A DNA stretch of 64,000 bases from Syncephalis fuscata. Taxonomy: Eukaryota > Zoopagomycota > Zoopagomycetes > Zoopagales > Piptocephalidaceae. Where the stretch lies: contig JAHLTZ010000011.1 in assembly GCA_025786725.1 (NCBI GenBank), forward strand, positions 124,001 through 188,000, in the 5' to 3' direction. The translations under genes and the position numbers were made by a program. Numbering within the stretch: position 1 is the stretch's first letter; each line of letters starts with the position of its first letter. Positions 54,413 to 56,227 of this stretch are shown piece by piece. The notes under the pieces were generated by a model, which searched no databases, was not told the origin of the DNA, and worked only from the letters and a program-made list of their open reading frames with translations.

Positions 54413-56227
54413 ATGAAGCTTTCCATTGCCGTCGTTTGCACCGTCGTTGTGACTTTGACAGCCGCTACAACCATGGTTGATGCTAAACCAACCATGGTGG
54501 ATGATAAACCAACTTTGGTTGGTCGTGGTATGTTTTAATGACAATAGATATAGCGTATTATTGTGCTTACTAACAGTATTTCTAACTTAATAATAATAGC
54601 TCGTAAGTTGCATTATATATTAACTAACTATTCACTAATTATGTACCATGTATTATGCGTATAAATGACTTAATATTAATAGTGGGTAAGTTGTATTATA
54701 TATTGACTGACTATGCACTAATTATGTATCATTTATTATTGGTATAAATAACGTAATATTAATAGAGCGTAAGTTGTATTATATATTGACTAATCATGCA
54801 CTAATTATGTACCATGTATTATGCGTATAAATAAACTAATATTAATAGCATGTAAGTTGCATTATATATTGCCTGACTATATACTAATTATGTATTATGT
54901 ACTATGCGTACAACACGCTTAATATTAATAGGTTGTAAGTTGTATTATATATTGACTGACTATGCACTAATTATGTACCATGTATTATGTGTATAAATAA
55001 CGTAATATTGATAGGGCGTAAGTTGCATTATATATTGACTGACTATACACTAATTATATATCATGTATTATGTGTATAAATAACTTAATAATAATAGGGC
55101 GTAAGTTGCATTATATATTGACTGACTATACACTAATTATGTACCATTTATTATGTGTATAAATAACTTAATAATAATAGCTCGTAAGTTGCATTATATA
55201 TTATTTATTTTATTTTGAAGAGCTTGTGAGCCCCGCTGCGCATAATTAAAGAATTTGCGCTGCTTCCCACTATATTTGGACTTTTCCAAACTTTTAACGG
55301 GTGGACTGCCACGTTTTTGCGCAAAATCTGGTCCATATAGATTTTACACGGGGGCCATCTTCCTTTAAATGGTGCTACACAGCACTATTCTCTTGAAGTT
55401 GGTCCCAATTGGTTTTTCCTCGGCTATTCTGGCCAAGGTCTTGTTTCCGGACCTACTTATTGGTTCTGGTTTGCAATTTGTTAACTAGAGAAAACGGGGG
55501 GGGATTTTTCATTAAGGATTGGTTCAAACCTCAGTTTGAACCCGGAGCCTTCAGCTCGGGAGACGCTGCCTTACCAACTGGGCTAGCAACGTCCCCAAGT
55601 TGCATTATATATTAACTAACTATTCACTAATTATGTACCATATATTATGCGTATAAATAACGTAATATTATAGGGCGTAAGTTGCATTATATATTGACTG
55701 ACTATATACTAATTATGTACCATGTATTATGTGTATAAATAACGTAATATTAATAGGGCGTAAGTTGTATTATATATTGACTGACTATATACTAATTATG
55801 TACCATGTATTATGTGTATAAATAACGTAATATTAATAGCATGTAAGTTGCATTATATATTGCCTGACTATATACTAATTATGTATTATGTACTATGCGT
55901 ACAACACGCTTAATATTGATAGTGTGTAAGTATTATTATATATTGACTGACTATGCACTAATATGTACCATGTACTATGCGTATAAACAACTTAATATTG
56001 ATAGGGTGTAAGTTGCATTATATATTGACTAATTATGCACTAATTATTTACCATTCATTATGCATATAAATAACGTAATATTAACAGGTCGTAAGTAGTA
56101 TTATACGTTGACTGACCACATATTAACTATGCTATTTACTGATTGTACCGATTATTTAATATTAATATATTGATGACTTATAAATTAATTATATGACATA
56201 TAATATATATTTGTAAATACAGCATAA
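54413..56227 (+). CDS. Secreted-peptide gene built of fourteen predicted 3-nt microexons
   Basis: Exon 1 (54413-54527) has a signal peptide (MKLSIAVVCTVVVTLTAA) and a spacer with a DxKPTxV repeat (DAKPTMVDDKPTLVGR); it ends in phase 1. Intron 1 (54528-54599) has GTATGT, a perfect TACTAAC and TAG. Then come 14 triplets, each with AG just before and GTAAG just after: CTC 54600, TGG 54683, AGC 54766, CAT 54849, GTT 54932, GGC 55015, GGC 55098, CTC 55181, GGC 55674, GGC 55757, CAT 55840, TGT 55923, GGT 56005, GTC 56088. The last intron (56091-56222, CAG) leads to CATAA, so the stop is TAA 56225-56227. Every codon after exon 1 straddles an intron, and the tail reads ALEPCWRPRRPLWCP with no internal stop. 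The product would be 53 residues. Function is unknown. Splicing is inferred; a plain minisatellite is the alternative. Confidence 0.6.
54603..56090 (+). repeat. 83-bp tandem array: 79-80-nt intron-like units separated by variable triplets
   Basis: Unit starts are spaced 83 bp, exactly in most cases and 82 twice once the SINE and its duplicated site are removed. Each unit begins GTAAG (GTAAGTTG in most), has a CACTAAT- or TACTAAT-type element about 35 nt in, and ends TAATAG, TGATAG or rarely ACAG. The array is a duplication of seven units: the first block starts at CTC 54600, the second at CTC 55181. The introns after the two CAT triplets (54852-54931 and 55843-55922) differ at one position in 80. 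The unit after GTC has lost its terminal AG and merges into a longer final intron. Confidence 0.92.
55204..55596 (-). mobile_element. tRNA-derived SINE inserted in one unit of the array
   Basis: 393-bp insertion flanked by a perfect 18-bp duplication AAGTTGCATTATATATTA (55186-55203 and 55597-55614). Read on the minus strand, it starts GGGGACGTTGCTAGCCC, has an A box TAGCCCAGTTGG (complement of 55574-55585) and a B box GGTTCAAACT (complement of 55533-55542) about 31 nt further on, a 250-nt body, and an A-rich end (AAAATAAAATAAA) at 55204. A pol III promoter, an A-rich tail and a long target duplication together define a SINE moved by LINE machinery. The parent tRNA is not clear because the anticodon arm is degenerate. 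Confidence 0.85.

Follow-up and report, generated by a model that had tools for sequence, protein, structure and literature searches.

Runs of single-codon exons predicted in a family of secreted-peptide genes of the fungus Syncephalis fuscata

In the window, which is the whole stretch of 64,000 nucleotides of Syncephalis fuscata DNA analysed here, a signal-peptide-like exon is followed by a tandem array in which triplets lie between AG and GTAAG. This locus raises the question of whether the triplets are exons, and whether a peptide may be encoded there one codon at a time. Syncephalis is placed in the Zoopagales and is named as mycoparasitic in PMC10386755; the S. fuscata assembly comprises 28.95 Mb in 299 contigs. 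Judging from the sequence comparisons described below, it is highly probable that the locus is a spliceosomal gene divided into exons of roughly a single codon each, and that all triplets and the terminal exon would join in one open frame. Elsewhere in the window, a probable subtilisin-like protease gene, judged from its residues, extends over several ORFs at 4435-8147, and an RGS-domain membrane protein with 60% identity to proteins of Syncephalis plumigaleata and S. pseudoplumigaleata is encoded at 22920-25496 on the minus strand.

The window gene lies on the plus strand. A 5' flank conserved in the family (54280-54412), probably the promoter end and 5' UTR, precedes exon 1, and at least 40 copies of 54280-54540 were found (40 of 238 candidates scored). 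Exon 1 (54413-54527) has 115 nt, that is, 38 codons encoding MKLSIAVVCTVVVTLTAATTMVDAKPTMVDDKPTLVGR and one base that opens the following codon (phase 1). Its start is signal-peptide-like, MKLSIAVVCTVVVTLTAATT having been judged by eye to be hydrophobic, and its propeptide end is GR, RR being usual in the family. Intron 1 (54528-54599, 72 nt) has the donor GTATGT. The predicted microexons are CTC (54600-54602), TGG (54683-54685), AGC (54766-54768), CAT (54849-54851), GTT (54932-54934), GGC (55015-55017), GGC (55098-55100), CTC (55181-55183), GGC (55674-55676), GGC (55757-55759), CAT (55840-55842), TGT (55923-55925), GGT (56005-56007) and GTC (56088-56090). The terminal intron (56091-56222), with the acceptor ATACAG, is followed by the start of the terminal exon (56223-56300), which consists of CA, the stop codon TAA at 56225-56227 and a conserved 3' UTR; at least 40 copies of 56180-56300 were found (40 of 157 candidates scored).

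On the plus strand of the window, AG-NNN-GTAAG was found at 14 sites within 54598-56086 and at just three more sites elsewhere. The array spacing was 83 bp, once 82 bp, with one gap of 493 bp, and TRF detected the 83-bp period on either side of this gap, in agreement with the 83-bp repeat array reported in the initial annotation. That annotation had also described units that begin with GTAAG, end in AG and stand three nucleotides apart. This description holds for the 14 sites, but the donor of intron 1 differs and the last intron has 132 nt. A terminal intron of 132 nt was also found in C211:6581 and C257:20417, while the usual length is 67-72 nt; judged by eye, that of the window gene is possibly two array introns fused with the loss of one unit. 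When G, the 14 triplets and CA were read in phase 1, ALEPCWRPRRPLWCP was obtained, followed by the stop, so the 15 sense codons and TAA proposed earlier were reproduced from exon 1, the triplets and the terminal exon. The full predicted product would be MKLSIAVVCTVVVTLTAATTMVDAKPTMVDDKPTLVGR joined to ALEPCWRPRRPLWCP.

The gap in the spacing corresponds to intron 9, which carries a SINE-like insertion of 393 bp (55204-55596, minus strand) absent from the initial annotation, as are its repeats. Its tRNA-like boxes on the minus strand were recognized by eye, and ARAGORN found no tRNA in the window. The insertion is bordered by an 18-bp direct repeat, AAGTTGCATTATATATTA, at 55186-55203 and 55597-55614, and these copies look like a target-site duplication. 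The insertion makes the intron longer and touches no exon. One intron of C96:2723 holds the same sequence. Of the 34 arrays described below, 13 have introns of 466-502 nt, the identity of the element having been seen for C96:2723 only.

The window gene belongs to a large family. The exon-1 peptide has at least 150 matches in the genome (150 of 277 candidates scored), and part of these matches were parsed, giving 88 starts. Three or more microexons followed in 42 of them and five or more in 34, and the latter arrays span 9 to 41 microexons each. By the filter used, 29 other members encode a short protein without introns, and the remaining parsed starts were incomplete, of other subfamilies or broken. 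Beyond the initial annotation, the analysis shows how large the family is, that some members lack introns, that exons of 6 nt occur now and then, and that exons change faster than introns. In one array member, C135:167510 (plus strand), exon 1 is out of frame before the first donor, perhaps as a pseudogene or through an assembly error. C1:475325-478260 and C1:531418-534399 carry arrays in opposite orientation with nearly the same triplet order, and represent an inverted duplicate.

Exon length was determined using a free parse, in which acceptor and donor were scored separately and the exon was allowed 1-15 nt; windows around AG-N3-GTAAG served to train the site matrices, but the scoring contained no spacing term. 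Across the 42 arrays, 828 of 865 internal exons had 3 nt, 25 had 6 nt and 12 had other lengths; the length was divisible by three in 854, including one exon of 9 nt. The preceding introns had 57-86 nt in 845 cases and were longer in the other 20. A rough guess from ORF junctions gave 12 candidates of 47-109 nt for ordinary introns of this genome. A stricter parse overlooked weak units and returned introns of double length, and a relaxed parse recovered most of these units. Five 7-nt exons from the relaxed parse were taken as artefacts of donors differing by one base.

A genome search with the pattern TAATAG-N3-GTAAGT and no parser yielded 2716 sites versus 5 for the reversed control. With other spacers, the counts (reversed control in parentheses) were 26 (36) for N2, 14 (20) for N4 and 15 (7) for N6, and on these controls a chance pattern was rejected. 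Many 6-nt exons follow the acceptor TATTAG, and ATATTAG-N6-GTAAGT was found 70 times genome-wide, compared with 3 in the control. Donors of array introns read GTAAGT in 666 of 779 cases and acceptors TAATAG in 564 of 779. The first-intron donor was GTATGT in 32 of 34 arrays, and the terminal-intron acceptor was ATACAG in all 32 arrays covered to the 3' end, 19 of these introns having 72 nt. In the column profile, the AG and GTAAG columns were fixed by the selection pattern and carry no evidential value, which is confined to the conserved columns next to them and to the three microexon columns; the latter were the most variable, with entropies of 1.86, 1.86 and 1.94 bits.

Variability of this kind may also be expected if the array were a minisatellite produced by chance or mutation, with AG-NNN-GTAAG as part of the repeat and three bases that are merely mutable. 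The array is indeed a tandem repeat with its most variable columns at these bases, but mutability by itself predicts neither open frames nor coupling across introns nor likeness to intronless genes, all of which were observed as described below, and we regard this explanation as extremely improbable.

To read the frame, the 34 arrays were decoded with exon lengths restricted to 3 and 6 nt, under which 804 exons came out at 3 nt and 30 at 6 nt, the latter at positions 2-6 or 22-33. Since this restriction favours the frame, the length counts above were drawn from the free parse. The initial annotation had named a lack of related loci with open triplet readings as a reason to abandon its proposal. 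On the contrary, in the 34 arrays only 3 stops were found among 864 phase-1 codons, compared with 7 of 864 when the triplets themselves were read as codons and 74 of 830 in the third frame. When exon order was shuffled within arrays, 50.2 ± 4.9 stops were obtained, and none of 2000 shuffles gave 3 or fewer. Moreover, the decoded peptides contained 140 cysteines, while the order shuffles gave 71.6 ± 5.8, and again none of 2000 had as many. A codon in the array takes its first base from the end of one triplet and its other two from the start of the triplet that follows some 80 bp on. Neighbouring triplets were coupled, and this coupling disappeared once exon order was shuffled. With the parts of a codon so far apart, coupling of this kind is to be expected from selection on a joined mRNA. 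The 3' end was covered in 32 arrays, and 28 of these reach the stop of the terminal exon cleanly; the stop comes one or two codons early in C13:7420, C165:5528 and C230:155041, and C24:27880 reads past it. The predicted joining of the triplets is therefore very well supported, and the joined product would almost certainly be a fast-changing secreted peptide that is usually rich in cysteine.

The intronless members provided a comparison, and 24 of the 29 entries were used as cores, at least three of them trimmed by a cleavage-site rule; one of the 29, C289:778047, looks frameshifted. The mean best local score of decoded peptides against these cores was 45.7; the value was 27.9 when exon order was shuffled, 34.0 when residues were shuffled, and 19.6 and 19.9 in the other frames. 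All 60 order shuffles were exceeded by 16 of the 34 decoded peptides, nearly all of them from long arrays. The other 18 fell short of this mark, and almost every short array is among them, as is the window gene. The peptide of the window gene scored 40 (order shuffles: mean 25.9, maximum 45). At the DNA level, 9 of 34 arrays exceeded all 100 order shuffles. For the window gene and its intronless twin, the shared stretch is AGCCATGTTGGC, whose 12 bases are spread over four exons, and the DNA score of 24 does no better than equal the best of 100 order shuffles. As its likeness to the intronless peptides lies within the range of its order shuffles, the window gene alone is unconvincing. In the case of C293:5180 (EPGNCDACVTKCEKTIRFMKWKCKYENCKQWCT) and the intronless C168:92128 (KPADCKACIKDCTRWWRLDYDKCRYKECREWCG), the alignment was gapless over 32 residues with six cysteines in register, and C96:2723 aligned with the same intronless gene without gaps over 31 residues, also with six cysteines in register. 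With six introns removed, C46:13832 has 20 bases in a row that are identical to contiguous sequence of C79:187924.

These comparisons bear on which product the arrays would make. Under combinatorial splicing, any subset of microexons would remain in frame, and each gene would give many peptides, the complete chain being just one of them. Skipping would be tolerated, since 854 of 865 lengths are divisible by three and all introns are in phase 1. The cysteine spacing of the complete chain is nevertheless that of contiguous intronless genes, and the neighbour coupling of exon order also fits a product that is mainly complete, although minor forms with skipped exons may occur; we consider combinatorial splicing possible but unlikely. 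Inclusion of every microexon in the main product is probable.

The relation between the two gene forms was examined at a recent segmental duplicate of the window locus about 20 kb away on the same contig (54413-57500 versus C13:196868-200098). The 1733 bp that lead up to exon 1 are 98.2% identical and the 1467 bp that begin with the 3' UTR are 99.25% identical, both extents running to the edge of the sequence compared. The duplicate carries an intronless gene with the core GWKPCWPRPWC where the window locus has the array. One locus in both forms with almost identical flanks is what may be expected if the spacers were excised from DNA like the internal eliminated sequences of ciliates, the intronless copies being the processed form. 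However, the spacer ends are spliceosomal (GTAAGT and TAATAG at the frequencies given above), and the two forms are separate copies on one contig with unlike peptides. We know of no DNA elimination of the ciliate type in these fungi, and this explanation is scarcely credible.

Returning to a spliced array, the simplest account of the intronless forms is conversion by cDNA. In a tree of 59 members (31 arrays and 28 intronless), which omits three members by a filter and those without the 3' UTR in view, the form changes at least 10 times, with only 2 changes forced by strongly supported branches, and the tree is blind to gain versus loss. Recombination with spliced cDNA is a reasonably likely origin of the intronless members.

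To evaluate how the parts of the array change, eight paralogue pairs were compared; of ten listed pairs, the more distant C13:178413/C251:70855 and C68:429707/C223:549433 were left out. Microexons differed at 106 of 525 positions (20.2%) and introns at 958 of 12978 (7.4%), while the splice sites, counted over six donor and three acceptor positions, differed at 12 of 1522 (0.8%). Exon 1 differed at 21 of 794 positions and the 3' part at 67 of 968. Relative to introns, the odds ratio was 3.2 for microexons (p 4e-20) and 0.10 for splice sites (p 2e-32). Five of the eight pairs were significant singly; C289/C290 (p 0.051), C211/C257 (0.22) and C165/C230 (1) were not, the last having 0 of 39 changes in microexons versus 10 of 965 in introns. 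Of 50 changed codons, 45 were nonsynonymous, and the synonymous share of 10% versus 18% for random single changes is a weak difference. From the differences by class, it was concluded that the splice sites are held and that the coding triplets are the fastest-changing part.

Constraint of this kind concerns a further explanation, in which splicing bypasses each array entirely or the arrays are relics. Exon 1 would then be joined to the terminal exon, with peptides made from the intronless genes only and the triplets left as remnants of repeat expansion. Such a joint likewise gives an immediate stop, and the arrays are tandem repeats. Against this, the splice sites differ far less than the introns, and the rarity of stops and the doubling of cysteines relative to order shuffles need selection on a joined product. 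This explanation is very unlikely.

The array units look like tandem copies, as the best-matching intron in the same array lay within three units for 358 of 779 introns. Unit number also differs between paralogues, with 28 units in C289:359026 versus 23 in C290:19347, and 28 in C135:146363 versus 31 in C293:5180, and each of the four chains decodes to the terminal stop. The paralogues were aligned here unit by unit, so that whole-unit gaps are true by construction. Arrays would probably gain and lose whole units of an intron and a codon, by which the peptide is altered in steps of entire residues and the frame is left unshifted.

The proposed mechanism is as follows. Exon 1 would provide the signal-peptide-like start and a propeptide, and each unit would consist of a short intron (GTAAGT...AATAG, mostly 57-86 nt) and a phase-1 exon of 3, rarely 6 nt. 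A 3-nt exon leaves no room for binding at both of its ends together, and the sequence GTAAGT fully matches the 5' end of U1. As a 3-nt exon would hardly bind acceptor and donor factors at once, splicing is rather likely to be stepwise from 5' to 3', one intron being removed before the next donor is used; a strong donor directly behind a freely varying triplet would serve each step. It is about as likely as not that cleavage follows the basic pair and that the released peptides are directed against the host or rival fungi in an arms race.

To place the family among known systems, its proteins were compared with public data. A profile of nine intronless members matched 13 annotated proteins at E<=1 (272 candidates), all from S. 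fuscata, in a search restricted to 0.55-1.75 times the query length. In a Pfam scan of eight intronless family proteins, none reached the curated cut-off, and the profile of nine intronless proteins matched no PDB chain at E<=1. In GenBank, BDF19DRAFT_453770 (C239:37670-38130) contains exon 1, CCA, AAG and then ATC with read-through into the intron, and these are the first three triplets of C239:38102. In BDF19DRAFT_436981 (C289:355500-360657), the residues after VRR depart from the predicted chain of C289:359026.

In terms of architecture, the closest likeness is to the micro-exon genes (MEGs) of schistosomes, which are described as secreted, with the signal peptide in a long 5' exon and a centre mostly of microexons below 36 bp (PMC4671649, citing DeMarco 2010); according to the same source, these microexons are mostly symmetrical, 26 of 33 in the genes described. 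A centre of microexons between longer flanking exons is likewise predicted in the 34 arrays, and 854 of 865 internal exons are divisible by three. Accordingly, as the main formal features are shared, the arrays were placed with the micro-exon gene architecture. Compared with the schistosome genes as described there, nearly all internal exons of the fungal genes are one codon, 9-41 in a row, with tandem units and intronless alleles. The likeness is structural, and homology is not expected.

Tiny exons that are spliced, as proposed for the arrays, have been described as a 1-nt exon of Arabidopsis APC11 (PMC4674806), a 3-bp micro-exon of Drosophila homothorax (PMC7392893) and plant microexons of 1-15 nt (PMC8831610); in these descriptions, they are isolated between ordinary exons, while the array runs would code for an entire mature peptide. 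Standard read aligners overlook exons of 3 nt, as noted in PMC8831610 and PMC7821500. Recursive splicing and dual-specific sites, as in the polyubiquitin gene UBC, involve tandem sites that act as acceptor and then donor, and they link splicing with tandem repeats (PMC10809524, PMC6224609). As reported there, the AGGT sites of UBC bound whole ubiquitin monomers, while AG-NNN-GT of the arrays would retain three bases each time. Ratchet points juxtapose AG and GT and leave no exon, whereas three bases separate them in 828 of 865 array exons. Fungal stwintrons are also spliced consecutively at one place, and sequence-similar copies are spread in the genome (PMC9024468); as described, they are nested, one intron splitting the donor of another, while each array intron has complete sites and no internal intron interrupting them (GTAAGT in 666 of 779). 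SP7-like effectors of arbuscular mycorrhizal fungi and aphid bicycle genes are described as fast-evolving families that symbionts or parasites secrete and that are recognized in part by exon-intron structure (PMC11333574). In the literature searched, in which subscription papers were thinly covered, no report of consecutive single-codon exons or of this family was found, and runs of up to 41 exons of one codon each are without counterpart there. To our knowledge, the exons of SP7-like and bicycle genes are not single codons.

In the literature searched, exons as short as 1-3 nt occur singly, while 2716 sites of a single exact pattern were found here in a 29-Mb genome, and the mature peptides seem almost wholly encoded by 3-nt exons. 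For annotation, a large secreted family can be nearly invisible, with 13 annotated proteins versus at least 150 copies of exon 1. If the proposed structure is true, this fungus would be a test bed for exons too short for joint recognition of their ends and for the order in which neighbouring introns are removed. The results suggest an unexpected role for introns, as units through which strongly selected coding sequence can be lengthened, shortened and recombined one codon at a time. We lean slightly towards regarding one-intron-per-codon genes as a new class of architecture, in which up to about forty single-codon exons are strung together and the tandem intron units would form a scaffold where a parasite adds, drops or swaps single amino acids with the frame unbroken, recombination with cDNA occasionally giving a compact intronless gene.
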